This document shows positions 23,311-64,000 of a DNA stretch of 64,000 bases, piece by piece. Positions within the stretch are counted from its first letter, which is position 1, and every line of letters begins with the position of its first letter. The DNA lies in assembly GCA_033675265.1 (NCBI GenBank), contig JAUJYZ010000484.1, positions 248,001-312,000 on the forward strand, given 5' to 3'. The stretch comes from Actinostola sp. cb2023 (Eukaryota > Cnidaria > Anthozoa > Actiniaria > Actinostolidae). The position numbers and the translations under genes are program-made. The notes below the pieces were generated by a model. The model was not told the DNA's origin, searched no databases, and saw nothing but the letters and a program-made list of their open reading frames with translations.

Positions 23311-23620
23311 TGCAACCAAGAAAATTACAATGGGACCTTTGGGTCTTCCGTATATCGCTATAACTTGTTGATACACCATAATAGCATTAAACAGGTAGCA
23401 TAAGAACGGTAGCAGCCTTATCGGAACACCCCCAAAAGGGACGAAATAAACAAAGGAATATATAACGTAACTAATGGCATGCAGCACGTGTACACATAGT
23501 TAGTTGTCGGTTGCAACTCGGATATATATCATACGCAAAACCAGTCATTTTAATGATAGCACTCTTCATTAAAACCTTAAAACAGACGTATGAGTTTCTT
23601 TATATTATTTTATTATCCAG
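23311..23620 (+). other. spacer or intron between RT and YR genes
   Basis: AT-rich and without coding, ending in TATTATTTTATTATCCAG|AACCC, a good 3' splice site. No matching donor could be chosen with confidence. The YR frame may be expressed by splicing. Confidence 0.4.
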
Positions 23621-28057: not shown

Positions 28058-28327
28058 GTACTCACCTCCACTTCGGGTAATAATTGTTAACTATTCTTCT
28101 ATTCTATTGATAAACTGTCGGTTCTTGTTTGGCTATGATCATGTGACTTAACTAAGAACGCTCTCCACTGATTGGACGACGTATTTTTTTAATATTTGCA
28201 ATATTAAAATATGTAATGCAGGTGAAAAAGAGTGAAGGATACTAGTTGTTGATTATAGATCGGCTCCAGTGAACACCTGCATATATCGGTCAGTAGCAGG
28301 AAGTGCATCAACTATTCTTTCACAACC

Positions 28328-30065: not shown

Positions 30066-30080
30066 GTGGCCGTCTCTATA

Positions 30081-31365
30081 AAAACCTCTCAGTCGTTTGC
30101 GCTTCTAAAATAAATATCTCCCAAACTCTAGCTAATGAAAGACTATATCAAGGTTAAAACTAAAACGGGTTTGGTTTGCTTCAAAATATTTTTATTTTAT
30201 TTTATTTTATTTTTTGAAATGATTCCGTCTGAGAGCTGGTCAAGAGGTCAAATTTGCATGAAATTATGCACTTCTTTACGGCGCTGTACAAACTTCGTCT
30301 CGCATTATCCAGCGAAACTTTTTATATCATGTTGTAGATAAATGTATCTAGTTTGTCTAGAGGTAAAGCGTTATTCAATCGGTTCAGCCGTTTATGAGAA
30401 AATTAGTTGATAATTAACCCCACTAAGATCTAACTGAACGGCGGCTCAAAATTACCCAACTTTACTCGATTATTTTGCAAAAGTGGCACCTCGCTGGACT
30501 CTCTCATTGACACAATCGGATTGAACATCATTTCATTTACACAAATCTGTAAAAACCTGTGTACGTTTTGGATATTTCAAAAGTTACGACAATTTCAGTT
30601 GGTGCATGTTAGACGATTTACGAATATTAATTAGGTGCAATATCTCAGATATCTTATCCATATGAAGTTGGAAACGGCTTACCTCCTTCCTAAATCGCTC
30701 ATGTTTCCCATTTTACCCATGCTAGACTTCATTCCAGGTCAACATTTCCAAATACAGCGATTTAGGATGGAGGTAAGCTATTTTCAACTTCATATGGATA
30801 AGATATTGCACCTAATTAATATTCGTAAATCGTCTAACATGCACCAACTGAAATTGTCGTAACTTTTGAAATATCCAAAACGTACACAGGTTTTTACAGA
30901 TTTGTGTAAATGAAATGATGTTCAATCCGATTGTGTCAATGAGAGAGTCCAGCGAGGTGCCACTTTTGCAAAATAATCGAGTAAAGTTGGGTAATTTTGA
31001 GCCGCCGTTCAGTTAGATCTTAGTGGGGTTAATTATCAACTAATTTTCTCATAAACGGCTGAACCGATTGAATAACGCTTTACCTCTAGACAAACTAGAT
31101 ACATTTATCTACAACATGATATAAAAAGTTTCGCTGGATAATGCGAGACGAAGTTTGTACAGCGCCGTAAAGAAGTGCATAATTTCATGCAAATTTGACC
31201 TCTTGACCAGCTCTCAGACGGAATCATTTCAAAAAATAAAATAAAATAAAATAAAAATATTTTGAAGCAAACCAAACCCGTTTTAGTTTTAACCTTGATA
31301 TAGTCTTTCATTAGCTAGAGTTTGGGAGATATTTATTTTAGAAGCGAAAACGACCGAGAGGTTTT
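30081..31365. mobile_element. 1,285-bp fold-back element nested in the transposon's terminal repeat
   Basis: Two ~620-bp arms (30081-30704 and about 30757-31365) are nearly exact reverse complements around a loop of about 50 bp. An identical 68-codon frame even appears on opposite strands at 30135-30341 and 31105-31311. TATA flanks both ends (30077-30080, 31366-31369). Removing it joins CTCTATA to CACCC, exactly as at the intact right end. It encodes nothing recognisable. Confidence 0.85.
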
Positions 31366-31497
31366 TATACACCCTTTTAATAATATACGGCGCCATTTTG
31401 AATATATCATCTATGACGTCATCAGCGGAAACATTTTAGCGGGAGAAAGTCCTCTCTTTGAGTTTCGATGATTGTACTCGTGAAAACAAAGCAAGAT

Positions 31498-39244: not shown

Positions 39245-39740
39245 TTACGTCTCGACGGATGGGTTTGAGGGATGTCCCTTCTTGATAAGCTGTCGTTCAC
39301 CATTGATATTGATAACCGGTGTTTCAGTTCTTGTGTGCCAGACAAAAACCTACCAACAAACAATGAAAAACAACATTTCATTTCGCAATTCAGCAATATT
39401 GTACGTGACGTCGTCACAAATCAAGATGGCGGCTTCCATAGGATGGAGAATACACTATCTTTCTACTACTCATTAATTATTCATGAGGGAATCCACCAAC
39501 CAGGGTTTCTAATTTGTACCAAGTGCAGTACTATTATTATAAATTATATATGTCAACTTGTACGAACATTTTAGAGTAAACTGATAAAGCATTCATTCAT
39601 TCATTCATTCAGTAAGAAGCAATAACCCCACGTGAAAACACACATCAACCACTACAGAAAAATCTGAGCCCCAGGTGGGAAACGAACCCACGACCTGTGT
39701 AGTGGTTCAGTTGATGTGTGTTTTCACGTGGGGTTATTGC

Positions 39741-39771
<31 letters not shown>

Positions 39772-42684
39772 TGGGTACTTGACCCATGTTTGGGTATAGG
39801 GGTGCCGCTGAGGGTTTGAAAGCCTGGCCCTGTTTAGGACAAAAAAAAACTAAACTACATACCCTGTCTAGGACAATACCCTCTATTTTAGGACCATGTT
39901 TAGGACGAAGGACATTTTATATTGACTGATGACCTGCTAAAGACCGGCAAATCTCGGATCTCAGATATATGACTAAATACCGGATAAAACCATATTTAAC
40001 GACGACAATCGTGCATTACCATACCCTGTTTAGGACAGACTCACATAAAATTATATACCCTGTTCAGGACAGAGAGGCCAAAAACCATACCCTGTCCAGC
40101 GGCACGTCCCCGTATAATTTACCATTCTATTCATTCAGTACTTTGAAACCCTGATGGAAAGCTCCCCCATGAGTTCAAAAAGCTCATGATAACAAGGCTA
40201 ATGTATTCAGTTCAAAGTCCTATATCAGGTTAATTCACCTTGAGAAAGGTCTCAAAATGTGTCGGATCATTGACCTTCCTCGACTTACGGAAACAGGGAA
40301 TCAATTAAGCCTCCTTTACATGACCTTCCCTGATAATAATGCTTCTTCGATGTGGGGTAGTACTGATGTGACATTGCAACAATCTGTTCATGCTCAGTAA
40401 CTTATTCATGTTACAGTTGATAACAAACATCAACAACGCATTTTGAAACCCCAATAGAATACAGCGACTCGTATTTGAAACAATACATCGATTATACTAA
40501 AAGACCTACAAAGATCATCGTCATGTCATACCTTCATACAGTTATCAGCTTTGGGCTCTAGTTCTTCCACTCTTGTAATCTGCTCCAGAAAAGACGTTTC
40601 CATCAGACCAGGTCGCACCTGTGGCTGAAACGAGGCGTCTGGATACTGCGAGATAATTTTACGAATGTTTATTGCGAACCCTGCCATATCGATTGGAAAT
40701 TTTCTCCATGGTTTCCAATTATTATGGAATCCAGTGACCTTGCCATCTCTGCATATAGGTCCAGACCATCGAGCAGCTCCTGTGAACGCCACTGGCCAGA
40801 TTCCAACGCCGTGTATAGAACGCATCTAAAGGAGGGAAAACATCACATATAATAAATCACTTGCTTAAAAACCTGGCATTTCAATGTCAGTGACTGTCGA
40901 TCTGAGACGGTCGGGTTCAAACGTAGAGTTGAGTTCGACTTTTCCGACTCCAGTTAAACCTGGTTTCCATTTGATCGATCGCTACGCACGAACACACTTG
41001 TTTTTTATGTTTTGTTTTTTCTTGTTTGTTTTTTTGAACAATTTTAACAGTTAATTTATACCCTAATGGTAAAAAAGCGATAGGTGTATGTAAAACTCGT
41101 AACCAATAGAGTCGTTTTCGCATGAGTGGGAAGTGGTTACGGTACGGTTCGGTGTCCAAGCATTCTGATTGGTTGAGTAATGATATTGATTGGTTGAATA
41201 CAATGTCTTCGATTCCGTACCGTGACCGTAACTCCGTGCCGTAGGTTTTCCACTCATACGGAAACGACTGCACAGGTTTTTTTCAGGTCCTGGAAACCAC
41301 GTGTTACCTCTTCAAACAGTCTTACGTCATACGTGTTGTCGTCATCTGCAAAATACACAACTCCTTTTGTCTGATTCGGGTTGACGTTTTTCCGAATCCA
41401 TTCAAGACCCAAGTTTCGTTGCTCGACACCACGTGACTTAGCCCATCGTGGCTGTTTACGCGACCTTCGTAATGGCTTTGGTGTTCTGATATTCAAGTGA
41501 GTATAAATTAAACCACAGGTTGATAGGAAATGTTCAACAAGTTTTGTCTTGTTTCTGGAGTCTTCTACGAGTATCCAGTGGAAGTTCTTAACGTGCCTGA
41601 ACGTGTTACAAATCCTTGTAAGTTCTGCTTTCTGTAAAAACCGTTTGTATGTCGGTGTAATGGCGAATATAGTGATCTCATCTGGGCGTCTTTGAACTAT
41701 TCTTTTGCTCCTTTTACGAAGTGGGATTCGTAGAATATTAATGCTATCCAGCGCACGATGGTTAATGGATCGTTCCTTGTGCAAATGCTGTGTCTTTTCC
41801 ATGGTAAACTGAACGTCAAGCATCTTTTCGGGATTGGTGGATTGCTCCTCTTCTGGAAAACGAAAAAGAAATATTCTTCACAAAAATGCGGTTTCTCGGG
41901 GATTAAAATAAATGACAATAGGTTAATAAACACATAGTGACAGATTTGTTGTCATTTAATGAACTACTGTTTTTTAGCATTTTACTATAAAATTGGAAGG
42001 CAAATGGAAGGTTATATTTTTTATTGTAAAATTAAAAAACTTCTTACAGTCAAACCTCTAGTAATGCGGTTACGTTACATTACGCTACGTTGCCTTACGT
42101 TACATTTCGTTACATTGCATTACGTTACATTACCTTAATAGGTTACATTACGTTACATTACGTTACGTGCATTAGGTTACGTTCCATTGCGTTCCATTAC
42201 GTTTCATTACGTTACGTTACATTAGGTTACAATACCTTACGCTACATTAATTATATTGCATTACATTATTACATTACGTTATATTACCTTAAGTTACATT
42301 ACGTTACATAACGTTACATTACCTTACGTTACATTACCTTACGTTACATTACCTTACGTTACATTACCTTACGCTACTTTACGTTACCTTGCGTTATATT
42401 ACCTTACGTTACGATACTTTACATTACATTTCCTTTCGTTACATTACATTACCTTACGCTACGTTACTTTACATTACGCTACGTTACATTACATTTCCTC
42501 TCGTTACATTACCTTACGCTACGTTACTTTACGTTACAACGCCGACGTTATTCAGGTGTCATGCTTGCTTGATTACTAATTTGTACAAACCTTTGAAATG
42601 TTCATTTTCAAACCGGTTCTCGATGACTTTTGTAAGCAAAAGCATGATTATAAAGCTACACAGAAAGATGACGTACTTCAGCAT
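39245..42684 (-). CDS. B3GAT-like: galactosylgalactosylxylosylprotein 3-beta-glucuronosyltransferase (GT43)
   Basis: A four-exon gene that reads through as 345 residues. Exon 1 (42591-42684) gives the short cytosolic start and signal anchor (YVIFLCSFIIMLLLT). Exon 2 (41308-41852) has the UDP-binding start ITPTYKRFLQKAELTR, then WILVEDS, GVEQRNLGLEWIR and the metal-binding DDD in VYFADDDNTYD (residues ~201-203). Exon 3 (40532-40825) has VGIWPVAFTG, RWSGPICRDGKV, FHNNWKPWRKFPIDMAGFAI and the Glu of SFLEQI. Exon 4 (39245-39349) has the C-terminal VFVWHTRTETP. All junctions are GT-AG and in phase (1, 0, 0). Family members transfer glucuronate from UDP-GlcA to galactose in the Golgi, for example completing the proteoglycan linker tetrasaccharide. 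Length is as expected for the family (about 325-345). Introns contain MITEs and repeats. The exact paralogue cannot be set from sequence alone. Confidence 0.9.
39618..39742. mobile_element. hairpin element with tRNA-like box B
   Basis: GCAATAACCCCACGTGAAAA is mirrored by TTTTCACGTGGGGTTATTGC. On the minus strand the loop reads GTGGGTTCGTTTCCCAC, a T-arm-like hairpin with a box B core. It lies in intron 3 of the glucuronosyltransferase gene. Confidence 0.55.
39741..40115. mobile_element. poly-G-headed repeat element
   Basis: CCC plus about 28 G residues, then GTGGGTACTTG and GTATAGGGGTGCCGCTG. The far end CCAGCGGCACGTCCCCGTAT is the inverse. Inside, the phrase CCCTGTTTAGGACA recurs several times in variant form. 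Same family as 17743-18842. Located in intron 3. Confidence 0.6.
42064..42540. repeat. degenerate TTACGTTACA repeat
   Basis: About 475 bp of irregular tandem 10-16-bp units such as ACGTTACATTACCTT inside intron 1 of the glucuronosyltransferase gene. The open frames here are repeat artefacts. Confidence 0.85.
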
Positions 42685-46249: not shown

Positions 46250-46416
<167 letters not shown>

Positions 46417-46478: not shown

Positions 46479-46529
46479 TGGGGGGGGGGGGGGGGGGGGG
46501 GGGGTGGGGGGGGGGGGGGGGGGGGGGGT

Positions 46530-46569
<40 letters not shown>

Positions 46570-47637
46570 GGGCTGCTATGTTGAGAGAAAAGTTCAGCCA
46601 AAAATGTATGGACCTCCCCCTGTTTGGAGTCTTAAATTGTTTAGCCCTCCCAATATTTGAGTTCAAAAAAATGTGGCCCTCCCCCATTACAAGTGAACAT
46701 AAAAATCATGAAACAGTACATACTGTACATCTCAACAATAAATCCCATACGTAAATATGCATATTTATGGAGCTTTTTAGCCGATAACAAGGAACCAGGG
46801 GTTGCACGTGTAGCGAGCGCTGTAAGCGTGAGACGCTAGGGGGTTTAGGGGCATGCTCCCCCTGAAAATTGTGAAATCCAGAGGGTCTAAAATGCAATTT
46901 CCAGCTTTCTGCAAGAGCTATTTGTGATTTACACGTATCGCTAATTTGCACTTTCAGTAGCGAGCGCCATAGGCGTAAGCCGGTAGGGGGTTTTGGGGGC
47001 ATGCTCCCCCAGAAAATTTTGAAATCTAGAGGGTCGAAAATGCTATTTCCAGCGTTCTCCAAAAGCTATTTGTGTATTTACAAGTATCGCTAATTTGCAT
47101 GTGTACAGTAGCGAGCGCCGTAGGCGTGAATCGGTAGGGGGTTTGGGGGCATGCTCCTCCAGAAAATTTTGAAATCTAGCTATATAGCTGGTCGAAAATG
47201 CTATTTCCAGTGTTCTCCAAGTGCTATTTGTGATTTACACGTATCGCTAATTTGCACGTAGGTAGGCGTAAGCCGGTAGGGGTTTTGGGGGCATGCTCCC
47301 CCAGAAAATTTTGAAATCCAGAGGGGTCGAAAATGCTATTTTCAGCGGTTCTCCAAGAGCTATTTGTGATTTACACGTATGGATAATGAGCACATTTCGA
47401 TGGTCTTTCATGTTCAAATTTGCCAAATAGAACAAGGAGCGAGAGCTTGATAATAGATACTGATTAGTGATGAAGACTTGGTTTATAAAAATGAGGTTAA
47501 AAATGATGACCCTCCCCAAAACTCAAATTAAAAAATTGTGACCCTCCCCAAAGTAGCGCTTAAAAAATCGTGACCCTCCCCAAAGTAGCGCTTAAAAAAT
47601 CGTGACCCTCCCCCCAAACATAGCAGCCCTCCCCCAC
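46479..47637. mobile_element. poly-G-headed element with internal tandem repeats
   Basis: Begins with about 90 G residues (three single-base interruptions), then AGGGCTGCTATGTT. The right end AACATAGCAGCCCTCCCCC is the inverse. Between 46808 and 47390 there are four ~150-bp tandem copies containing GCATGCTCCCCCAGAAAATT and TGTGATTTACACGTATCGCT. Three ~33-bp copies of GTGACCCTCCCCAAAGTAGC follow near the right end. Confidence 0.7.
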
Positions 47638-47956
47638 CACTTATTTATCATTTTTTGAAAGAACATACATAGTCTAGTAATACATCAAAAGCCCATCAAT
47701 TTAAATGAAACCCTCGTAAAGTTATAACCACATGAATTCTAGCAATTGCATGGAAACGAGGCTAGTCAGTCCAAAACTCAATTTCCCATACAAATCTTTG
47801 TGATTTCAATTCGCTATAACTTTTTACATTTTTTGTAGAATCGCTCTAAAGTCTTGTAGGTTTGTTTTTGTTATTATACTCTTTGAAACGATGGCTGTAA
47901 CATATCACTACTATACACAATGAGATTTACTGATTCCGCCATTATTGCATTCGGTC

Positions 47957-47991
<35 letters not shown>

Positions 47992-48238
47992 AGAACAGTT
48001 ATTAGATGCCATGCCTGGTAATATATGAATTGAGGGTAATTAACTTCGTCAGGCAAAGGGAATAGACGACAAACGCGTATTCAGACGTTTCGCCGGTGAA
48101 GGCTTCATCATGCAGTGGTATATTTTAAACTGAGAATCACTATCTTAAATGACTTACATTTGAATTCTGAAATACCCAATGGTATTTAGTTGATTAAACA
48201 ATACTTTATATAATTACAATAGTAGTGTCCTGGGAATA

Positions 48239-48521
48239 CAGTCATTTGCAAAAATTCTGGCCGCCATGATATATCAATATATCAGTATATCGGGTGCATT
48301 ATGGGTAATTAAATAATACTATTTTGAGTTTCCTAACGTATTAAATGAAGCCAAAAAAAAAAAACGTATGACTAAAATAAACATTATACTAATTATTTCT
48401 ACCAACTTTGCTGGCGTTAACCCGCTTTAAGGGGAATTTTCGATTATTTAATTACCCATAATGCACCCGATATATTGATATATTGATATTTCTTAGCGGC
48501 CAGAATTTGTGCAAATGACTG
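48239..48521. mobile_element. 283-bp MITE with TA target duplication, in PLE 3' region
   Basis: CAGTCATTTGCAAAAATTCT and its inverse form the ends, with TA outside (48237-48238, 48522-48523). The unoccupied sequence GGGAATAGTAATGAC exists at 60821-60835 (and inverted at about 50747-50760), which proves the insertion boundaries. TA duplication suggests Tc1/mariner-type mobilisation. Confidence 0.85.
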
Positions 48522-48538
48522 TAGTAATGACAATATAG

Positions 48539-50333
48539 TTATATGCAGAGAAACCTGCCTACACAGCCATTCATGATGTTAGTTGAATGTTTTCTTATTT
48601 CAAGTGCTTCGATAACTTTACGCTCTTTGGGGAATTTGATGTTTGTGTGAAGTATTTTCCATCTAATTGGAGATTCTTTCAGGAAATTGGCAGAGTGTGA
48701 TGCCAAATGTGTAAACACGGTCTGGCCTCGGAGGTGTTCTTTGATCCGTGAACCAATGGTGCGTCCTGTTTCTCCAATGTAGACTGCTTGACAGTAAGAA
48801 CACTTAATGTGGTAGATGGTATTCTTTGTCAGACATCTATTTTCCCTTTCGGCCAGCACACATGTCTCACATTCGCTTGGACAATTTTGCTTAACTTTAG
48901 GCGCTGCGAAGATCTTTGAGAGTGGTCGTCCGTTCATGAAGTGTATTCTAATACTGCCAATACCAGATCGTCGTATAACACTAGACAATGTGCGTCGTTT
49001 CAGTTCCTCGTTTATGAATGGGATTTTTAGATAGATATCACTTTGATGATCTTCTGTAGTCGGTGCGTTCCGCAGCGTGCGCTTAATGGTTGTTTTGACA
49101 AACTTCTTGGGATAACCGTTCTGAATGAATATTGATGTAATTTTACGTAGTGACAATGTTCTGTTGAACGTGAAATAGCTCTCCTCGTCTCTCCAATCAA
49201 AATAGCTCTCTTGGATGATATGGGGCCATGACTATCCCACGGTACAATACACTGGCTGTGTATGGGCTTGACATATAGTGTGGTAGAGAATGATCGCTTC
49301 TCATGGTCCAGAGAAACCATGGTGTCCAGAAATGGTAGTTGGTTGTCTTGTGGCATCTCAATGGTGAATTTCAGTGCAGTATTCAAGCTATTAGCGGTAG
49401 ATAGTATTTCCTCTGCAGTGATCCCATCAGACATCCATGCGATGAAGATATCGTCGATGTAGCGTTTGAGTGACATCAAGGCTTTGTCCTGAAATTGGCA
49501 TAGTATCTGTATGTCGATCTCGTTCATGTAAATGATTGCTAGTGCTGGGGCAAGGTTGTTCCCCATGGCGAGTCCAGTCTTCTGGGTATAGCCTTTATCT
49601 CCGATCAGGATTACGTCGCTCGTCAGACAGAGTCGGAGAAATGATTCAAAATCGTCATCATTTAAACCTTTCAGTTCGCAATCCGATTTATACTTTGAAA
49701 AGAAGTGTTTAGCCACAGAGAAAACACTGGGTGTAGTTGTGTCTATATCCTCCAGTGGAATGGAGCCATACAAATTACAGACATCAAGGCTGCAAAAAAC
49801 CCTTAACTTCTCCGTCGATATCAGATAAGAACTTGATAAATTCTTATGTGTTCTTAAGATGGGCCGGTACATGTCTTAAGAGTGTATTTAGTGAATTCGC
49901 CATGAATTTAGACAGACGTGTGGCAGGGGTGTCGGTAGCTGCATGTATTGGTCGGCCTTTCAGGTATCCCACTTTGTGATCTTTAGGTAGGCAATAGGCC
50001 GAGCAGGGTAGTGGTTCACTGCAAGTGTTGCTCTTAAGATCTTGCCAGAGTTTGGGGGTCGTGTTTTCGATACTTATCTGCAATCTTGTTAAGTTGTCCA
50101 TTGAATCGTATCATTTCCGTCCTGGGGAGATTCAACTTCTTTTTTGGCTTGTAGTTTCCCGTTTCAATGGTACTTTTACGAAGGATGTCTTCATAGTGGT
50201 TGTCGTCGAGAGCAACTAGTCGTTTGACTTGTCTGTACCACTTGGTTAGGAGGGGGATGGTATACGTGTCGCTTAGAAACGACGCACATTGTCTGTTATA
50301 CGACGATCTGGTATTGACAGTATTAGAATACAC
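48539..50333 (-). pseudogene. Penelope-like element, RT + GIY-YIG (outer copy, left arm)
   Basis: Collinear minus-strand frames: N-terminal region (50333 to about 50035), then CLPKDHKVGYLKGRPI and FCSLDVCNLYGSIPLEDI, GLAMGNNLAPALAIIYM, and catalytic YIDDIFIAW (49450-49461). The thumb with QLPFLDT and YVKPIHSQ follows, then the linker with the Cys cluster CETCVLAERENRC, and the GIY-YIG nuclease (IKCSYCQAVYIGETGRTIGS, then RIKEHL). PLEs prime reverse transcription at chromosomal breaks. The frames are offset near 50040, 49860 and 49160, so at least three indels break the gene. It is 5'-truncated at about 50,285, where an inverted second fragment begins. Confidence 0.85.
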
Positions 50334-50737
50334 TTCATGAACGGACGACCACTCTCAAAGATCTTCGCAGCGCCTAAAGTTAAGCAAAATTGTCCAAGCG
50401 AATGTGAGACATGTGTGCTGGCCGAAAGGGAAAATAGATGTCTGACAAAGAATATACCATCTACCACATTAAGTGTTCTTACTGTCAAGCAGTCTACATT
50501 GGAGAAACAGGACGCACCATTGGTTCACGGATCAAAGAACACCTCCGAGGCCAGACCGTGTTTACACATTTGGCATCACACTCTGCCAACTTCCTGAAAG
50601 AATCTCCAATTAGATGGAAAATACTTCACACAAACATCAAATTCCCCAAAGAGCGTAAAGTTATCGAAGCACTTGAAATAAGAAAACATTCAACTAACAT
50701 CATGAATGGCTGTGTAGGCAGGTTTCTCTGCATATAA
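50285..50737 (+). pseudogene. 5'-truncated PLE, GIY-YIG part (inner copy, left arm)
   Basis: Starts at CGACGCACATTGTCTGTTATA, head-to-head with the outer copy. It encodes the linker and GIY-YIG endonuclease in two frames, with a shift near 50450 (MSDKEYTIYHIKCSYCQA), and ends CVGRFLCI. It lacks all RT. It also lacks the MITE found in the outer copy's 3' region, so it is an independent insertion or predates that MITE. Confidence 0.8.
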
Positions 50738-50867
50738 CTATATTGTCATTACTATTCCCAGGACACTACTATTGTGATTATGTAAAGCATTGTTTAATCA
50801 ACTAAATACCATTGGGTATTTCAGAATTCAAATGTAAGTCATTTAAGATAGTGATTCTCAGTTTAAA

Positions 50868-50925
50868 AATATACCACTGATGAAGCCTTCACCGGCGAAA
50901 CGTCTGAATACGCGTTTGTCGTCTA
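50868..50925 (+). ncRNA. hammerhead-like motif in PLE 3' terminal region
   Basis: CTGATGA (50877-50883), stem II GCC-TTCACC-GGC, then GAAA (50897-50900) and a CG...CGTT stem III. Stem I is weak. This is the arrangement described in terminal repeats of Penelope-like elements. The outer-copy equivalent (48068-48125) has CA inserted in the core (CTGCATGATGA) and should be dead. Confidence 0.55.
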
Positions 50926-50969
50926 TCCTCCTTTTTCCCTTTGCCTGACGAAGTTAAATACCCTCAATT

Positions 50970-52506
50970 CAATAATAATAATGATGATAGTTATATATTT
51001 CTTAAAAACGGAAAAGACATATGTGTTAGAACGTACGTACCTTTCTCAGGTGCTATGTTGATAGCGATCCTTTCAATATTTAGTTTTCCAACTCATTTAT
51101 TTCTCGACTTGACTACCAGAATTAATACGTATAAACTTATTAAATGAAAAACTGGTGAGACATAACCCAAACAGGACTTCCCGGGGAACTTAATTTAACA
51201 AAAACAATTGCCAATTAAGGATATAAGCTAAGGGAAATAAAGCAGCTCCGTGCTGAGGGGAATTCCCCTAAAAAACTGGTCAACTAACAATGGCACAACA
51301 CCTACCTAGAACTGTCCTGCGTGCGCTACGATACTCACATGAATATAAAATAATGTCAATCGACGACCAATGTTTTATACTACAAAACACATGCTAATAC
51401 TTGTTTTTGCTGCGTACAATGCTGCACGAGACTCTCTCTCTCTATATATATATTTATAAAATAACATAATATAACGCGCGCTCTGATTGGCTAAAAAGCT
51501 ATGTGATATAAGAGCACATAAACATGGTTCATGACCTTGAACGACCTTGAAGCGATGCAGTGGATTTGATCGACCACAAAAGTATTTTTTTTCTGTTGTC
51601 AAACATGTTTTATTTACTAAACACAAAAGCCATAGAATTACAGTTTTTCTTTTTAGTTAAGTTCAAGTTCTATGTAGATGTGATTTTGATGATTTTAACC
51701 CGAAAATTAATTTTGCAAGAATTCAAACACGGCAAGAAACAAACTCGACGAATTGTCCAATTATTTTTGTCCACAATAACGAAGAAAACTAAATATAACG
51801 GCTCAGTGTTCTCAATCACATACTAACCATTTTGTAAGTTATATAGCTACACATATTTTCTCAAGTGTACGGCTGAAAATATCAAGAAAAGATAGCCGTA
51901 TTTATACTGACAAAAGAGTGAAAACAGAGCGATTCTTGTAGCTACACAGCTACACGGCGGGTTCACCTGAACATTCATATCTCTAGTAAAATATGTCAAA
52001 GAGAAAAAATATCTTGAAATGTCTCAGACGTCCATCGTTTATACATTCTTGTCGAGAAAAGCGATGAAAAGATTCAAAAAAATACGACAAAAACTGTGGA
52101 TATTTGGCTACCTGACTTCGTGCTCCATTCATCTAGTTGTCAAATATTTCAGAAAGTTTGAGGACTCTTCGTCATTGATCGTGATTCGGCTCAGCTTTTC
52201 TCACTTTTCTTCGTGTTTCGTGTTCACAGAATACAAAAACAAAGTGTAACAAGCATTCTTCTGTAATTTTCTGACAGAAAATAGCATTCTTCAAACGTTT
52301 TTCGTGTCAAAACTGACCCAAACGGGAAAACGGCACACTGACGAAAGTTGTCGAGTCGCTTGCCATTTTGATTTCTTTCGTGAGATTTGATTGGATGATG
52401 GGCGATTTCTGACGCTTTTCAGGAGAATTGAAAATTGATCAGTAAAACCTCGCGTAAATAAAGGATTTTTACGAAAGAAATCCTTGCAGTTATTTTATAA
52501 AAGCCT
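50970..52506. other. non-coding arm segment
   Basis: Contains the MITE-type block AACGCGCGCTCTGATTGGCT at about 51474 and AT-rich sequence. Frames at 51560-51826 and 52019-52249 have mirror copies in the right arm but resemble no protein. Confidence 0.4.
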
Positions 52507-52687
52507 TATAAAATGGTTTTCCATGTTTTGTGCTCTTATATCAACACTTGGGATGTTGAGAGAACACTTGAAAAGCTTTAAAATCACTCGCCGGAGGCTC
52601 GTGATTTTAAAGCTTTTCTCGTGTTCTCCCAACATCCCGCGTGTTGATATAAGAGCACAAAACATGGAAAACCATTTTATAAAGCTT
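52507..52687. mobile_element. hairpin MITE in left arm
   Basis: TGTTTTGTGCTCTTATATCA is mirrored by TGATATAAGAGCACAAAACA, with centre CTCGCCGGAGGCTCGTG. Mirror copy at 58870-59063. Confidence 0.7.
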
Positions 52688-52867
52688 AAATATAATATAT
52701 CGATATTTCAAAGAGTTATAAACAGTGAATACTGCAAAAACTAATGACGTCTAACTTATTCGACCTTGAACAACTTGCAAGGCGAGTGTAACTCAACACG
52801 ATCAGTCCTGCCCCTGCAAGAACCGATCCGATAACGAATGGTACTGACATACGCTGAAAGCAGTTAT

Positions 52868-53113
52868 AACTAGGGAGCGCGTAAGCAGCACTGAGACGTT
52901 TTTGACAACGCGGACGGCGCGCGCACTGAAGAATGATGTTCCAAACGAACGTCGACGTCCTTGATGGCAATCTACGGCGGCACTTCACCTGTTTTCACGT
53001 CGTAGATTGCCTTCACGGACGTCAACGCTGGGTCGTTTTTGAACATTATTCGTCAGTGCGCGCGCCGTCCGTATTGACAAAAACGTCTGCTGCTTTTAAA
53101 AGTTCTCTAGTAT
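52868..53113. mobile_element. GC-rich hairpin MITE in left arm
   Basis: GACGTTTTTGACAACGCGGA and GGACGGCGCGCGCACTG are mirrored near 53095-53045; the inner pair is GGCAATCTACG/CGTAGATTGCC. Mirror copy near 58452-58697. Confidence 0.7.
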
Positions 53114-53217
53114 CCCTGGTCCAGTGCACTTCTGGTCCATTTAATTTGGCGTTTCCCCGTCGTTTACAGGTTAAAGGGTGCCCCATTAGCTGCAGTGTTT
53201 GTCCAATGTTGTGCAGT

Positions 53218-53507
53218 TATATACACCTATTTCAAATAACGTTGTCGCGTTCAAAGCAACAAGCGTCAAGCCAAGACCGAAGTGAATGCTGGTTTTGTGT
53301 TTTGCAATTATTTAAATCACAATTGTTTCTATAAGGACTAATTAAAAATGTGAACATTTCCACGTGCTCGTTTGCATATCACACTTCGATCCATAGAAAA
53401 TAGGTCTGATTTGAATAATTTGCCAACACAAAACCAGCATTCATTTCGGTCTTGGCTTGACGGTTGTTGCTTTGAACGCGACAAACGTATTTGAAATAGG
53501 TGTATAT
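53218..53507. mobile_element. MITE with ~100-bp terminal repeats in left arm
   Basis: TATACACCTATTTCAAATAA is mirrored by TATTTGAAATAGGTGTATA, including GTCAAGCCAAGACCGAA and inverse. Mirror copy at 58048-58335. Confidence 0.75.
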
Positions 53508-53559
53508 CATCTCTCATGCACCCAACGTGTCACACAGCAGGGAAGTGCTGTCACTCCCA

Positions 53560-54098
53560 ACCTGTCTGTGTTACTGCGCATGCATTGATTTGGCATGTAT
53601 AGAAGGAATCAAGGAATCATCATTCATGTTTGACAAGGAGGAGTGTTACTGTTACTGTGTTACTGCGCATGCATTGATTCGGCATGTATTAGAAGGAATC
53701 AAGGAATCATCATTCATGTTTTGACAAGGATAGTGTTACTGTTACTGTGTTACTGCGCATGCATTGATTCGGCATGTATAGAAGGAATCAAGGAATCATC
53801 ATTCATGTTTTGACAAGGATAGTGTTACTGTTACTGTGATAGGCTGCGCATGCATTGATTCGGCATGTATAGAAGGAATCAAGGAATCATCATTCATGTT
53901 TTGACAAGGATAGTGTTACTGTTACTGTGATACTGCGCATGCAATTGATTCGGCATGTATAGAAGGAATCAAGGAATCATCATTCCTGTTTTGACAAGGA
54001 TAGTGTTACTGTTACTGTGTTACTGCGCATGCATTGATTCGCATGTATAGAAGGAAATCAAGGAATCATCATTCATGTTTTGACAAGGATAGTGATAA
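53560..54098. repeat. ~88-bp minisatellite, about six copies (left arm)
   Basis: The unit contains GCGCATGCATTGATTCGGCA, AAGGAATCAAGGAATCATCA, TTTTGACAAGGATAGTG and TTACTG repeats. Unit lengths vary by one base between copies. Mirror array at 57458-57985. Confidence 0.9.
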
Positions 54099-57000
54099 AG
54101 TACCCAGGTCGCGGTTGTTCGTGGTTTTTGGCATCGTCGACAGGTGTGAAATAGGTAGGTGTGTAGCTTGTTACATTTTAATATAACTATAATGATGCCG
54201 GTTCATCAAGCTAAGGTGTTAAATATTGTTAGGGCCGTGACGGTGTGCAGAGTGGCAGTAAATAATGTAGCTCTCTTGAATGTTTAATTTTTTTCTTTTA
54301 AACTTGTTTATGGTACATGGTAGGTAAACGGTCACATTTCCCCCGGATCTGCGCCTAGTAGTAGTGGTGATATATTTGATTGTGTCCGGTCTTTTCATTT
54401 ACAATGTTAATATCAGTATTCAATATTTGATCATATAAATTCATATAACTTGTTCGCTTGATTATTTTTATCTAGCGTAATAACTAGTGTTATCTTTCTT
54501 GATTGTGTCGATATTTTCGTTTTATACAATTTGTTTAATATCATGCAGTACTCAATATTTGATCATATAAATCATATAACTTGTTGAGATGATTAGGAAT
54601 ATTGTCTTTTATTAGGTATTTGAAGTTAATCAAAATCCCGGAGGGACACCCATACATGAGGTGATGGGAAGGCTCGTCGTACCTTTTAGGGTTTGAAATC
54701 CGCGATTTGGTACTGCTTAGGTGGTCTCAGATTAAAGGACCACCTGAAGATACCAAGTCGGTACGTTTTAGGACTGATGTCTGTCAGCAAATAAAATAAT
54801 GACAGTTGCAGATATAATGATATTAAGTATATTTTAACCCCCTAACATTTGTTTTTGCGAATGTTTCTCCCGGAATCGCAAAATTAACCGCAAGATGCAA
54901 TTAAAGGAATAAATTATTTTATACTTCTTAGGGGTGAACATTAGTTCATGCCCACGCCCAATTGGAAGAAACTCGGGTACCTTTTAGGGGTTCTTTTCAA
55001 AATTGCACGACGAGCATTCCCCTGACATTCGTATAGGATTTCTCTCCCCCCCCCCCCCCCCCCCCCCCCGGGAACATAATCTGACTTGATATTGATGTTA
55101 TCACCTAACGGTTCCAAATTAAGTATCTAGTGGTGCCATTGGTTAATTCTCGAAACATTTGTGTCTATTAATTAACCACACGCTGAGGACAACTTGACAG
55201 TTCCTGACCCTCATTCTTTTAGTAAGTTATGTTAACAAGGAAAGTGGTAAACATTGCTGTGAAACCGGTTAATGTTTATTATTAGCATCACCAGCAGTTT
55301 GGTCATGATAAACAATAACGTCCACCAAGATGAACTTGATAAAAGACGTGGAAGACATGTGATTAACGCCCGCGCCGGGCATATGCAGTAACTTGTACCA
55401 GAACTCCAGTGAAAACCAAGCCACTCTATATCACTTACTACTTGTAGAATGTTAGTTAGGACAAAGCACAGCCTTTTTTCTTTTTCTTCTTTGTTTTGTT
55501 ATTGCCTACCAAAATATTATCTAACCAAACCTGGTAGATCCTATATAAAAAAAACGATAAAACGAGAGTTGTCACTGCATTGGTAGATCTAATTATTGGA
55601 CATTTTTAATAGTTCAGTATTACAAGTAGCAGCGTCCTACTTCTATTTACCATTGTTCTACTTAGCCTAGATCAATCAACAGATCCACTAAATTTCAGAA
55701 TGGAGGTATGTTACGTACCGAGGAATAAGTGATTTAGAGTGGCTTGGGTTTCCTTTGAATGATTTTTGCAAGTTTTTTTTAACTTGCAAATCAGTCAAAA
55801 TGGAAACCCAAAGCCACTCTATAAATCACTTTATTCCTCGGTACCCGTAACTACATCCCTTCTGAAATTAAGTGGATCTTTTGCTGCACTAGGCTAGAAC
55901 ATGGTAAATAGAAGTAGACGCTGATAAGTGTAATACTGAACTATAAAAATGTCCAAAATTAGATCTTACCAATCAGTGGAACAACTCTCGTTTTATCCTG
56001 TTTATATAGATCGCCCAGGTTTTGGTTAGATAAATATTTTGTTAGCAATAACAAAAAAAAAAGAAAAAGAAAAAGAAGGCTGTTCTTTGTCCCTACAACA
56101 TTCTACAAGTAGTAAGTGATATAGAGTTTCTTGGGTTTCACTGGAGTTCTGGTTAACGTTAACTGAAGATGACCGCCGCGCGTTAATAACATTGTCTTCC
56201 AAGTCCCTTTTTATCAAGGTTCATCTTGGTGGACGTTATTGGTTCTCATGAACAACTGCTGCGTGATGCCCTAATAACGAACATTAACGGTTTCACTAGA
56301 ACTATTTACCCACTTTCCTTGTTAAACATAAAACTTACTTAAAAGAAATGAGGTCAGGAATGTCAAGTGTCCTCAGAGTGTGTTAATTTACTAGACCAAT
56401 GTTTCGAGAATAACCAATGCACCAATAGATACTTAATTTGGAACCGTTTAGGGGGATAAACATCAATATCAAAGTCAGCTTATTTGTTCCGGGGGTGCGG
56501 GGGGGGGGGGGGCGAGAGAAATCATATACGAATTCAGGGGAATGCTCGTCGGCAATTTTGAAAATGACCCTAAAAGGTACCCGAGTTTCTTCCAATTGGG
56601 CGTGGCATGAACTAATGTTCACACCTAAGAAGTATAAATATTTATTCCTTTAATTGCATCTTGCGTTAATTTGCGATTCCTGAGAACATTCGCAAAAACA
56701 AATGTTAGGGGGTTAAAATATATTAATATCATTAATATCGGCAACTGTCATTATTTTATTTGCTGACAGACATCAGTCCTAAAAACGTACCGACTTGGTA
56801 TCTTCAGGTGGTCCTTTTAATCTGAGACCACCTAAGCAGTACCAAATCGCGGATTTCAAACCCTAAAAAAGGTACGACGAGCCTTCCCATCACCTCAGTG
56901 TATGGGTGTCCCTCCGGGATTTTGATTAACTTTCAAATACCTAATAAAAGACAATATTCCTAATCATCTCAAACAAGTTATATGATTTATATGATCAAAT

Positions 57001-57457
57001 ATTGAGTACTGCATGATATTAACAAATTGTATAAACGAAAATATCGACACAATCAAAGAAGATAACACTAGTTATTACGCTAGATAAAATAATCAAGCGA
57101 ACAAGTTATATGATTTATATGATCAAATATTGAATATGATATTAACATTGTAAATGAAAAGACCGACACAATCAAATATATCACTACTACTAGGCGCAGA
57201 TCCGGGGGAAATGTGACCGTTTACCTACCATGTACCATAAACAAGTTTAAAAGAAAAAATTAAACATTCAAGAGAGCTACATTTATTTACTGCCACTCTG
57301 CACACCGTCACGGCCCTAACAATATTTAACACCTTAGCTTGATGAACCGGCATCATTATATTATTTATATTAAATGTAACAAGCTACACACCTACCTATT
57401 TCACACCTGTCGACGATGCCAAAAACCACGAACAACCGCGACCTGGGTACTTTATCA
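54099..57457. other. palindrome core, non-coding
   Basis: Inner parts of both arms and the centre. Contains a C24 tract at 55046-55069 with a broken G counterpart near 56491-56512. No gene is seen. The innermost ~600 bp per side diverges more than the rest. Confidence 0.5.
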
Positions 57458-57985
57458 CTATCCTTGTCAAAACATGAATGATGATTCCTTGATTCCTTCT
57501 ATACATGCCGAATCAATGCATGCGCAGTAACACAGTAACAGTAACACTATCCTTGTCAAAACATGAATGATGATTCCTTGATTCCTTCTATACATGCCGA
57601 ATCAATGCATGCGCAGTATCACAGTAACAGTAACACTATCCTTGTCAAAACATGAATGATGATTCCTTGATTCCTTCTATACATGCCGAATCAATGCATG
57701 CGCAGTATCACAGTAACAGTTAACACTATCCTTGTCAAAACATGAATGATGATTCCTTGATTCCTTCTATACATGCCGAATCAATGCATGCGCAGTAACA
57801 CAGTAACAGTAACACTATCCTTGTCAAAACATGAATGATGATTCCTTGATTCCTTTCTATACATGCCGAATCAATGCATGCGCAGTAACACAGTAACAGT
57901 AACACTCTCCTTGTCAAAACATGAATGATGATTCCTTGATTCCTTCTATACATGCCCAAATCAATGCATGCGCAGTAACACAGAC
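57458..57985. repeat. ~88-bp minisatellite (right arm)
   Basis: Inverse copy of the 53560-54098 array with about the same number of units. Confidence 0.9.
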
Positions 57986-58047
57986 AGAACAGGTTGGGAG
58001 TGACAGCACTTCCCTGCTGTGTGACACGTTGGTGCATGAGAGATGAT

Positions 58048-58335
58048 ATACACCTATTTCAAATAACGTTGTCGCGTTCAAAGCAACAACCGTCAAGCCA
58101 AGACCGAAATGAATGCTGGTTTTGTGTTGGCAAATTATTCAAATCAGACCTATTTTCTATGGATCGAAGTGTGATATGCAAACGAGCACGTGGAAATGTT
58201 CACATGTTGTAATTAGTCCTTATAGAAACAATTGTGATTTAAATAATTGCAAACACAAAACCAGCATTCACTTCGGTCTTGGCTTGACGCTTGTTGCTTT
58301 GAACGCGACAACGTTATTTGAAATAGGTGTATATA
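58048..58335. mobile_element. MITE with ~100-bp terminal repeats in right arm
   Basis: Mirror of 53218-53507. Confidence 0.7.
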
Positions 58336-58451
58336 TAACTGCAAAAAAAAACATTGACAAACACTGCAGCTAATGGGGCACCCTTTAACCTGTAAACGAC
58401 GGGGAAACGCCAAATTAAATGGACCAGAAGTGCACTGGACCAGGGATACTA

Positions 58452-58697
58452 GAGAACTTTTAAAAGCAGCAGACGTTTTTTGTCAATACGGACGGCGCGC
58501 GCACTGACGAATAATGTTCAAAAACGACCCAGCGTTGACGTCCGTGAAGGCAATCTACGACGTGAAAACAGGTGAAGTGCCGCCGTAGATTGCCATCAAG
58601 GACGTCGACGTTCGTTTGGAACATCATTCTTCAGTGCGCGCGCCGTCCGCGTTGTCAAAAACGTCTCAGTGCTGCTTACGCGCTCCCTAGTTATAAC
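58452..58697. mobile_element. GC-rich hairpin MITE in right arm
   Basis: Mirror of 52868-53113. Confidence 0.65.
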
Positions 58698-58869
58698 TGC
58701 TTTCAGCGTATGTCAGTACCATTCGTTATCGATCGGTTCTTGCAGGGGCAGGACTGATCGTGTTGAGTTACACTCGCCTTGCAAGTTGTTCAAGGTCGAA
58801 TAAGTTAGACGTCATTAGTTTTTGCAGTATTCACTGTTTATAACTCTTTGAAATATCGATATATTATAT

Positions 58870-59063
58870 TTAAGCTTTATAAAATGGTTTTTCCATGTTT
58901 TGTGCTCTTATATCAACACGCGGGATGTTGGGAGAACACGAGAAAAGCTTTAGAACACGAGCAAAAATCACGAGCCTCCGGCGAGTGATATTTTTAAAGC
59001 TTTTCAAGTGTTCTCTCAACATCCCAAGTGTTGATATAAGAGCACAAAACATGGAAAAACCAT
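58870..59063. mobile_element. hairpin MITE in right arm
   Basis: Mirror of 52507-52687, but with about 12 extra bases at the centre (GAACACGAGCAAAAATCACG). This is a real sequence difference between the arms. Confidence 0.65.
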
Positions 59064-60654
59064 TTTATAAGGCTTTTATAAAATAACTGCAAGGATTTCT
59101 TTCGTAAAAATCCTTTATTTACGCGAGGTTTTACTGATCAAATTTTCAATTCTCCTGAAAAGCGTCAGAAATCGCCCATCATCCAATCAAAATCTCACGA
59201 AAGAAATCAAAATGGCAAGCGACTCGACAACTTTCGTCAGTGTGCCGTTTTTCCCGTTTGGTCAGTTTTGAACACGAAAAAACGTTTTGAAGAATGCTAT
59301 TTTCTGTCAGAAAAAATTACAGAAGAATGCTTGTTACACTTTGTTTTTGTATTCTGTGAACACGAAACACGAAGAAAAGTGAGAAAAGCTGAGCCGAATC
59401 ACGATCAATGACGAAGAGTCCTCAAACTTTCTGAAATATTTGACAACTAGATGAATGGAGCACGAAGTCAGGTAGCCAAATATCCACAGTTTTTTGTCGT
59501 ATTTTTGAATCTTTTCATCGCTTTTCTCGACAAGAAATGTATAAACGATGGACGTCTGAGACATTTCAAGATATTTTTTCTCTTTGACATATTTTACTAG
59601 AGATATGAATGTTCAGGTGAACCCGCCGTGTAGCTGTGTAGCTACAAGAATCGCTCTGTTTTCACTCTTTTGTCAGTATAAATACGGCTATCTTTTCTTG
59701 ATATTTTCAGCCGTACACTTGAGAAAATATGTGTAGCTATATAACTTACAAAATGGTTAGTATGTGATTGAGAACACTGAGCCGTTATATTTAGTTTTTC
59801 TTCGTTATTGTGGACAAAAATAATTGGACCAATTCGTCGAGTTTGTTTCTTGCCGTGTTTGAATTCTTGCAAAATTAATTTTCGGGTTAAAATCATCAAA
59901 ATCACATCTACATAGAAACTTGAACTTAACTAAACAAGAAAAACTGTAATTCTATGGCTTTTTGTTTAGTAAATAAAACATGTTTGACAACAGAAAAAAA
60001 TACTTTTGTGGTCGATCAAATCCACTGCATCGCTTCAAGGTCGTCAAGGTCATGAACCATGTTTATGTGCTCTTATATCACATAGCTTTTTAGCCAATCA
60101 GAGCGCGCGTTATATATATGTTATTTTATAAATATATATATAGAGAGAGAGAGTCTCGTGCAGCATTGTACGCAGCAAAAAACAAGTATTAGCATGTGTT
60201 TTGTAGTATAAAAACATTGGTCGTCGATTGACATTATTTTATATTCATGTGAGTATCGTAGCGCACGCAGGACAGTTCTAGGTAGGTGTTGTGCCATTGT
60301 TAGTTGACCAGTTTTTAGGGGAATTCCCCTCAGCACGGAGCTGCTTTATTTCCCTTAGCTTATATCCTTAATTGGCAATTGTTTTTGTTAAATTAAGTTC
60401 CCCGGGAAGTCCTGTTTGGGTTATGTCTCACCAGTTTTTTCATTTAATAAGTTTATACGTATTAATTCTGGTAGTCAAGTCGAGAAATAAATGAGTTGGA
60501 AAACTAAATATTGAAAGGATCGCTATCAACATAGCACCTGAGAAAGGTACGTACGTTCTAACACATATGTCTTTTCCGTTTTTAAGAAACATATATAACT
60601 ATCATCATTATTATTATTGAATTGAGGGTATTTAACTTCGTCAGGCAAAGGGAA
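59064..60654. other. non-coding arm segment
   Basis: Mirror of 50970-52506. No gene recognised. Confidence 0.4.
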
Positions 60655-60712
60655 TAGACGACAAACGCGTATTCAGACGTTTCGCCGGTGAAGGCTTCAT
60701 CAGTGGTATATT
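60655..60712 (-). ncRNA. hammerhead-like motif (right arm, inner PLE)
   Basis: Mirror of 50868-50925 with the CTGATGA...GAAA core intact on the minus strand. The outer right copy at about 63545-63605 has CTGCATGATGA and a changed stem II (GCC/AGGC). Confidence 0.55.
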
Positions 60713-60842
60713 TTAAACTGAGAATCACTATCTTAAATGACTTACATTTGAATTCTGAAATACCCAATGGGTATTTAGTTGATTAAACAATGCTTTACAT
60801 AATTACAATAGTAGTGTCCTGGGAATAGTAATGACAATATAG

Positions 60843-61290
60843 TTATATGCAGAGAAACCTGCCTACACAGCCATTCATGATGTTAGTTGAATGTTTTCTT
60901 ATTTCAAGTGCTTCGATAACTTTACGCTCTTTGGGGAATTTGATGTTTGTGTGAAGTATTTTCCATCTAATTGGAGATTCTTTCAGGAAGTTGGCAGAGT
61001 GTGATGCCAAATGTGTAAACACGGTCTGGCCTCGGAGGTGTTTCTTTGATCCGTGAACCAATGGTGCGTCCTGTTTCTCCAATGTAGACTGCTTGACAGT
61101 AAGAACACTTAATGTGGTAGATGGTATATTCTTTGTCAGACATCTATTTTCCCTTTCGGCCAGCACACATGTCTCACATTCGCTTGGACAATTTTTGCTT
61201 AACTTTAGGCGCTGCGAAGATCTTTGAGAGTGGTCGTCCGTTCATGAAGTGTATTCTAATACTGTCAATACCAGATCGTCGTATAACAGA
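60843..61290 (-). pseudogene. 5'-truncated PLE, GIY-YIG part (inner copy, right arm)
   Basis: Mirror of 50285-50737. Linker and GIY-YIG nuclease ending CVGRFLCI, with frameshifts near 61040 and 61130. Confidence 0.8.
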
Positions 61291-61329
61291 CAATGTGCGT
61301 CGTTTCTAAGCGACACGTATACCATCCCC

Positions 61330-63110
61330 CTCCTAACCAAGTGGTAAGACAAGTCAAAACGACTAGTTGCTCTCGACGACAACCACTATGAAGACATCCT
61401 TCGTAAAAGTACCATTGAAACGGGAAACTACAAGCCAAAAAAGAAGTTGAATCTCCCCAGGACGGAAATGATACGATTCAATGGACAAACTTAACAAGAT
61501 TGCAGATAAGTATCGAAAACACGACCCCAAACTCTGGCAAGATCTTAAGAGCAACACTTGCAGTGAACCACTACCCTGCTCGGCCTATTGCCTACCTAAA
61601 GATCACAAAGTGGGATACCTGAAAGGCCGACCAATACATGCAGCTACCGACACCCCTGCCACACGTCTGTCTAAAATTCATGGCGAATTCACTAAATACA
61701 CTCTTAAGACATGTACCGGCCCATCTTAAGAACACATAAGAATTTATCAAGTTCTTTATCTGATATCGACGGAGAAGTTAAGGGTTTTTGCAGCCTTGAT
61801 GTCTGTAATTTGTATGGCTCCATTCCACTGGAGGATATAGACACAACTACACCCAGTGTTTTCTCTGTGGCTAAACACTTCTTTTCAAAGTATAAATCGG
61901 ATTGCGAACTGAAAGGTTTAAATGATGACGATTTTGAATCATTTCTCCGACTCTGTCTGACGAGCGACGTAATCCTGATCGGAGATAAAGGCTATACCCA
62001 GAAGACTGGACTCGCCATGGGGAACAACCTTGCCCCAGCACTAGCAATCATTTACATGAACGAGATCGACATACAGATACTATGCCAATTTCAGGACAAA
62101 AGCCTTGATGTCACTCAAACGCTACATCGACGATATCTTCATCGCATGGATGTCTGATGGGATCACTGCAGAGGAAATACTATCTACCGCTAATAGCTTG
62201 AATACTGCACTGAAATTCACCATTGAGATGCCACAAGAAACCAACTACCATTTCTGGACACCATGGTTTCTCTGGACCATGAGAGCGATCATTCTCTACC
62301 ACACTATATGTCAAGCCCATACATAGCCAGTGTATTGTACCGTGGGATAGTCATGGCCCCATATCATCCAAGAGAGCTATTTTGATTGGAGAGACGAGGA
62401 GAGAAAAATTTAAAAAAAAAAAAAAAAAAAAAGAAAGAAAATTACAAAAAACCATTAATGCGCACGGATACAAAGAAAAGATCATAAAAAAAATTATAAC
62501 GTTCAAGAACATTGTCACTACGTAAAATTACATCAATATTCATTCAGAACGGTTATCCCAAGAAGTTTGTCAAAACAACCATTAAGCGCACGCTGCGGAA
62601 CGCACCGACTACAGAAGATCATCAAAGTGATATCTATCTAAAAATCCCATTCATAAACGAGGACTGAAACGACGCACATTGTCTAGCTGTTATACGACGA
62701 TCTGGTATTGGCAGTATTAGAATACACTTCATGAACGGACGACCACTCTCAAAGATCTTCGCAGCGCCTAAAGTTAAGCAAAATTGTCCAAGCGAATGTG
62801 AGACCTGTGTGCTGGCCGAAAGGGAAAATAGATGTCTGACAAAGAATACCATCTACCACATTAAGTGTTCTTACTGTCAAGCAGTCTACTTTGGAGAAAC
62901 AGGACGCACCATTGGTTCACGGATCAAAGAACACCTCCGAGGCCAGACCGTGTTTACACATTTGGCATCACACTCTGCCAACTTCCTGAAAGAATCTCCC
63001 AATTAGATGGAAAATACTTCACACAAACATCAAATTCCCCAAAGAGCGTAAAGTTATCGAAGCACTTGAAATAAGAAAACATTCAACTAACATCATGAAT
63101 GTAGGCAGGT
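61330..63110 (+). pseudogene. Penelope-like element, RT + GIY-YIG (outer copy, right arm)
   Basis: Mirror of the left-arm outer PLE. YIDDIFIAW lies at 62123-62149 and the GIY-YIG motif (QAVYFGETGRTIGS) near 62879-62920. Frames change near 61480, 61720, 62105, 62240 and 63000. Between about 62400 and 62510 it has an A-rich insert of roughly 80-90 bp, including an A20 run, absent from the left arm. Near 63100 it lacks six bases (of CVGRF) present in the other copies. Confidence 0.8.
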
Positions 63111-63143
63111 TTCTCTGCATATAACTATATATTGTCATTACTA

Positions 63144-63430
63144 CAGTCATTTGCACAAATTCTGGACGCTAAGAAATATCAATATATCAATATATCGGGT
63201 GCATTATGGGTAATTAAATAATCGAAAAATTCCCCTTAAAGCGGGTTAACGCCAGCAAAGTTGGTAGAAATAATTAGTATAATGTTTTATTTTAGTCATA
63301 CGTTGTTTTTTTTTTTGCTTCATTTATACGTTAGGAAACTCAAAATAGTATTATTTAATTACCCATTAATGCACCCGATATACTGATATATTGATATATC
63401 ATGGCGGCCCAGAATTTTTGCAAATGACTG
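63144..63430. mobile_element. MITE with TA duplication (right arm)
   Basis: Mirror of 48239-48521, with TA at 63142-63143 and 63431-63432. Confidence 0.8.
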
Positions 63431-63678
63431 TATTCCCAGGACACTACTATTGTAATTATATAAAGTATTGTTTAATCAACTAAATACCATTGGGTATTTC
63501 AGAATTCAAATGTAAGTCATTTAAGATAGTGATTCTCAGTTTAAAATATACCACTGCATGATGAAAGCCTTCACAGGCGAAACGTCTGAATACGCGTTGG
63601 TCGTCTATTCCCTTTGCCTGACGAAGTTAAATACCCTCAATTCATATATTACCAGGCATGGCATCTAATAACTGTTCT

Positions 63679-63713
<35 letters not shown>

Positions 63714-64000
63714 GACCGAATGCAATAATGGCGGAATCAGTAAATCTCATTGTTGTATAGTAGTGATATGTTACAGCCATCGTTTCAAAGAGTATAATAA
63801 CAAAAAAACAAACCTACAAGACTTTAGAGCGATTCTACAAAAAATGTAAAAAGTTATAGCGAAATTGAAATCACAAAGATTTGTATGGGAAATTGAGTTT
63901 TGGACTGACTAGCCTCGTTTCCATGCAATTGCTAGAATTCAAATGGTTATAACTTTACTAGGGTTTTCATTTAAAATTGATGGGCTTTTGATGTATTACT
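63431..64000. other. PLE terminal region and flank
   Basis: Mirror of 47672-48236. It includes the damaged hammerhead-like motif, an ATT tract at about 63683-63712 and CCGAATGCAATAATGGCGGA. No gene. Confidence 0.5.

Follow-up and report, generated by a model that had tools for sequence, protein, structure and literature searches.

A stretch of 64,000 nucleotides from the deep-sea anemone Actinostola sp. cb2023 (contig JAUJYZ010000484.1, positions 248,001 to 312,000; hereafter the window) ends in a palindrome of at least 16 kb, which turns on itself at a run of six T residues. Judging from the sequence, I consider this palindrome to be probably (at a rough probability of 0.8) the artefact of a fold-back molecule that passed through sequencing and assembly. 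That it is an artefact of one kind or another is very likely indeed. The first-pass annotation of the window had offered two explanations: a fold-back read or assembly error, or a recent inverted duplication with arms homogenised by gene conversion. The former is favoured here. The latter is disfavoured because the arms differ mostly by single-base insertions or deletions (indels) beside an identical base, and because these differences are densest at the junction.

The two inverted copies occupy 47,676-55,774 (left arm, plus strand) and 55,781-64,000 (right arm, minus strand, most likely a second reading of the left-arm DNA), and each is about 8.1-8.2 kb long. As read off the sequence, the centre consists of TTGCAAGTT (55,766-55,774), the spacer TTTTTT (55,775-55,780), and AACTTGCAA (55,781-55,789). 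When the window was compared with itself by BLAST, the segment 49,179-62,403 matched itself in inverted orientation at 95.9% identity, and 47,676-49,171 matched 62,499-64,000 at 97.6% identity. A match of such length between the arms is not due to chance. Thus, the earlier description of a palindrome of at least 16 kb, with a spacer of about 6 nucleotides and a centre near 55,778, holds true. It had also been annotated that the right arm still matches at the final base, and the inverted match indeed reaches base 64,000, the last base of the window. The outer end of the palindrome therefore lies beyond view, and the outer limit of the left arm is set only by the window end. Arms that are reverse complements of each other, 8.1-8.2 kb in length and with only a 6-base spacer between them, are what a fold-back molecule should leave. 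On the other hand, the arms had been called exact mirrors, and this is true of the order of their contents but not of their identity, since many substitutions and indels separate them.

What kind of differences are these? The arms were compared by BLAST with the same settings as 13 non-tandem repeat pairs found elsewhere in the window, which served as controls. The controls were drawn from the sequence up to 47,600; pairs shorter than 100 bases, matches that overlap, direct repeats with less than 1.5 kb between them, a tandem array at 8.9-11.5 kb, and an AAT array at 7.2-7.5 kb were excluded. The arms were counted in three aligned pieces, omitting an insertion of about 90 bases in the right arm near 62,404-62,498. 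The arms have 87 substitutions and 155 gaps, whereas the control pairs have about 198 substitutions and 44 gaps (Fisher p 3e-25 for the gap-to-substitution ratio). Single-base gaps beside an identical base account for 100 of the 155 gaps in the arms but for only 3 of 45 in the controls, where the count is 45 rather than 44 because self-matches were halved and rounded. In the roughly 7,000 aligned bases away from the central kilobase, there are 95 gaps and 25 substitutions. Since the differences are dominated by indels, and by single-base gaps beside the same base, unlike those of the controls, most of them have the look of sequencing errors rather than of evolved changes. This is the character of raw-read errors, as expected of a fold-back molecule; evolved copies should differ mostly by substitutions, and the arms do not, although this test would miss a palindrome that is very young and still has residual errors.

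Another aligner gave 59 substitutions and 182 indel events between the arms. In that set, 48 of the 59 substitutions match a neighbouring base, a figure which has no control and is not used as evidence. My own aligner overcalls gaps in the controls (it gave 7 substitutions and 7 gaps for the element at 30,077-31,369 described below, where BLAST finds 23 and 1), which is why arms and controls were both counted by BLAST. A global MAFFT alignment misaligned the centre and raised the substitutions to 237, so its counts were discarded, and an ungapped mirror comparison was unworkable because of the many indels between the arms. In the centre, the ratio of transitions to transversions is 7:55, unlike that of the controls (78:119), while outside the centre it is 8:17 and does not differ from the controls (p 0.52).

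The differences are concentrated around the turn. Up to 700 bases from the centre, there are 13-16 difference events per 100 bases; the number falls to 10 at 700-800, to 6 at 800-1,000, and to 1-4 at 1,000-2,000 bases. Farther out, there are 2-12 events per 500 bases. Accordingly, the central 975 bases or so are 86% identical between the arms, as against 97.7% for one outer piece and 97.6% for the other, and a noisy core can be delimited at 54,800-56,750, whose halves of about 1 kb differ by a mixture of indels and substitutions. The junction is thus poorly polished relative to the remainder, as a false joint should be. Composition does not explain the central peak, because the density of homopolymer runs is alike in the left half of the centre (58 per kb), the remaining left arm (57 per kb), and the first 44 kb of the window (62 per kb). 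A poly-C run of about 24 bases lies about 700 bases from the centre.

The Actinostola sp. cb2023 assembly is described as having been made from PacBio reads (20-kb inserts) and Illumina reads (a 500-bp library) by LoRDEC correction, DBG2OLC assembly, Racon and Pilon polishing, and Redundans; the stated coverage is 280x, the contig N50 is 373 kb, and the heterozygosity is 0.9%, with a heterozygosity-reducing step; the reads are public under accessions SRR25988563-SRR25988567 (PMC10803348). From such data, the palindrome may have arisen as follows. One or very few PacBio molecules would have been read along one strand and then back along its complement. Possible routes are a SMRTbell lacking an adapter, a strand jump of the polymerase, and the snap-back and self-priming of a 3′ end during library preparation. 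The assembler would then have incorporated the fold-back read, so that the right arm would be a second reading of the left-arm DNA. The outer parts of both arms would have been polished by normal reads. At the false joint, no normal read would be collinear with the contig and, as polishing depends on mapping, about 1 kb on each side may have stayed near raw-read quality.

A real inverted duplication of at least 16 kb with a 6-nucleotide spacer, whose arms either have not had time to diverge or are homogenised by gene conversion, would have to account for the same pattern. It may arise, for example, by hairpin-primed synthesis at a short inverted repeat, and the differences between the arms would then be mostly residual sequencing errors. 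The stem formed by TTGCAAGTT and AACTTGCAA with its T6 loop is as expected from that mechanism, there are few true substitutions between the arms (25 in about 7,000 bases outside the centre), and three older differences within a retroelement are identical in both arms. However, at 280x and with 20-kb inserts, many crossing reads should have polished the centre, yet it is only 86% identical; moreover, the raised differences extend to 900-1,000 bases from the centre, beyond the reach of one 500-bp short-read insert. Long palindromes with such short spacers are also unstable. I therefore regard a real duplication as improbable. A covalently closed hairpin end of a linear DNA, with polymerase read-through, would also yield a palindrome with a loop-sized spacer, as observed. 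In that case, all reads would turn at the same base and the centre should be well supported, but it is poorly supported. No hairpin telomeres are known in cnidarians, and this explanation is hardly credible.

Both arms contain a Penelope-like retroelement with broken frames, and two copies of one of its pieces help to tell which arm departs. As the first-pass annotation had it, Penelope-like genes and a minisatellite are mirrored in the two arms. The left-arm copy of the retroelement lies at 48,539-50,354 on the minus strand, in several broken frames with frameshifts relative to P0001; it has a Pfam RVT_1 match and a GIY-YIG match just under the cut-off. The right-arm mirror copy at 61,468-63,143 on the plus strand has more frameshifts and the T-rich insertion of about 90 bases (62,404-62,498), which is found only in this arm, and its RVT_1 match is below the cut-off. 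The insertion has a faint resemblance to the adjoining 100 bases or so, like that of a degraded repeat (score 52; the maximum of 300 shuffles was 45). The minisatellite has 5.9 copies of a unit of about 90 bp at 53,566-54,094 (plus strand) in the left arm and at 57,456-57,983 (minus strand) in the right arm. It was also observed that the retroelement carries a piece of about 480 bases of its own end inverted upstream (48,522-49,001 and 50,276-50,754, 98.5% identical), and that this arrangement is mirrored in the right arm.

With the second, inverted piece within each arm as the reference, the retroelement piece has 8 private changes in the right arm and 1 in the left arm, and 3 older differences that separate the pieces recur unchanged in each arm. 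Relative to P0001, there are 9 frameshifts in the right arm and 4 in the left arm; one is at the same residue in both arms, and another is within ten residues. The minisatellite, counted by eye, shows 7 departures private to the left arm and 3 private to the right arm, with one difference and a 5-base insertion being ambiguous. The view that the right arm alone is a bad copy was thus supported by the retroelement (8 versus 1 private changes; 9 versus 4 frameshifts) but contradicted by the minisatellite (3 versus 7), and it was dropped. The hand tally gives 15 changes in the right arm and 3 in the left arm without the minisatellite (p 0.008), and 18 and 10 with it (p 0.18). Errors are present in both arms, which is the expectation for two passes over one molecule.

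Several points weigh against a fold-back artefact. The first comes from P0008 (QZH41_005524), which lies on another contig of 288,247 bases and covers four of the arm differences, as judged by eye. At two of these it reads as the left arm does, and at the other two as the right arm does; a one-base deletion and one substitution are common to P0008 and the right arm and absent from the left arm. The changes in the right arm are therefore not all noise, and another copy or allele of the retroelement exists. Some of the right-arm changes may be real variants, if the fold-back molecule came from the other haplotype or if the arm was corrected with reads from the P0008 copy. The shared deletion and substitution also show a second version in the assembly, as would suit a strand switch at the level of the assembly, in which no read was folded and the path of the contig crossed over to the opposite strand, either of this locus or of a haplotype or copy almost identical to it. 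Such a switch may have occurred at a repeat or a coverage gap, for example at the poly-C run, and would likewise be an artefact; the reported heterozygosity of 0.9% and the reduction step (PMC10803348) are in line with it. In contrast, a path of consensus quality should not diverge by 14% at the joint, and away from the central kilobase the substitutions (25 over some 7,000 bases) are fewer than 0.9% predicts. A strand switch is thus unlikely, if somewhat less so than a real duplication.

The second point is a slight rise of the differences in the outermost kilobase (12 and 8 events per 500 bases, with 7 substitutions among the 20), which is not predicted by the fold-back model. Third, no trace of an adapter was found at the turn: the best local score against the adapter sequence was 15 in the 400 bases around the centre, and shuffled sequences averaged 15.6. 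An unrecognised adapter should have left such a trace; its absence points to a missing adapter, a strand jump, or a snap-back instead. Fourth, DBG2OLC filters out a read when the sets of other reads that join its left part and its right part are inconsistent, as its authors describe (PMC5004134). A fold-back read might escape this filter, because both of its parts would recruit the same reads. Fifth, PacBio HiFi data were virtually without fold-backs in one study, and Iso-Seq data had them at 0.03% (PMC12870357); this covers three PacBio samples, and the Results of that study name no raw-read genomic library. Finally, the centre could also be noisy because short reads failed at a true hairpin. 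The palindrome would then be real, with arms near-identical in the true sequence and a centre that was under-polished as the hairpin defeated the short reads, which I hold to be as improbable as the real duplication set out above.

Nevertheless, reads of the kind required by a fold-back artefact are on record. In an unamplified PacBio control, palindromes were found in 0.5% of reads, which the authors attributed to false positives and to missed or missing SMRTbell adaptors (PMC6218980). According to the same source, a palindrome was present in 40-50% of Arabidopsis reads from amplified data, and with such palindrome-rich reads DBG2OLC assemblies had an N50 about 26-fold lower and a duplication ratio of 1.34 instead of 1.08. 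That load is far heavier than expected for the Actinostola library. The authors of DBG2OLC state that chimeric reads are problematic, and more so on PacBio (PMC5004134), and another assembler is reported to correct read artefacts that include missed adapters and polymerase strand jumps (PMC6304105).

The Actinostola palindrome resembles the palindromic PacBio reads of PMC6218980 in that two inverted readings are joined at a turn with long-read errors between them; those reads are known from unamplified data and, when frequent, are harmful to DBG2OLC assemblies. Unlike those reads, the present palindrome is found in an assembled and polished contig, and an adapter trace was not found at its turn. 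The fold-back artefact reads described in PMC12870357 are, as here, nearly perfect palindromes that have few or no bases between their halves, and their turns are enriched in homopolymers, among others, while the turn here is T6. They were described mainly from Oxford Nanopore data, and the PacBio HiFi sample in that work was virtually free of them.

Natural large palindromes provide the other comparison. Those of primate Y chromosomes, for example, have long inverted arms of high identity, as here. They have, in contrast, longer unique spacers, arm differences of the substitution type, and the support of spanning reads.

Elsewhere in the window, a palindromic element of 1.3 kb was found at 30,077-31,369, with arms of about 646 bases and almost no spacer. 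By BLAST (halved self-match), its arms differ by 23 substitutions and 1 gap, and it therefore looks like a real, aged palindromic mobile element. A 93-base G run (46,480-46,572, 93% pure) lies beside an (AAT)n repeat (46,253-46,415); it is unusual and perhaps itself a sequencing problem. A glycosyltransferase family 43 gene of four exons was located at 39,248-42,684 on the minus strand by protein comparison with P0136 (QZH41_016131), to which its product is identical apart from mismatches at the ends of the aligned segments. The segment 28,259-29,459 encodes a rhodopsin-type receptor (7tm_1 in 28,602-29,459); this may contain a residual frameshift, since an upstream open frame (28,259-28,708) is in a different frame. 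At 22,018-24,991, RNase H-like matches near the cut-offs are followed by an ALOG domain and a weak tyrosine-recombinase match, which I take to be perhaps a DIRS-like retroelement. A tandem array of about 2.4 kb (8,968-11,405) has units of 84-96 bases and then of 42 bases, with one frame open for 377 codons. A scan of the window against Rfam at gathering scores gave no match.

The false arm would double genes and repeats in a public assembly, which makes this locus a cautionary case. Indel-type differences that are densest at the joint, judged against repeat controls in the same sequence, may separate fold-back artefacts from real palindromes, and this approach is suited to cases in which only the assembled sequence is at hand. 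As biology, the palindrome is probably of little consequence. If it were real after all, few short-spacer palindromes tolerated by an animal would exceed it in length, and it would challenge the view that such large palindromes with short spacers do not last.

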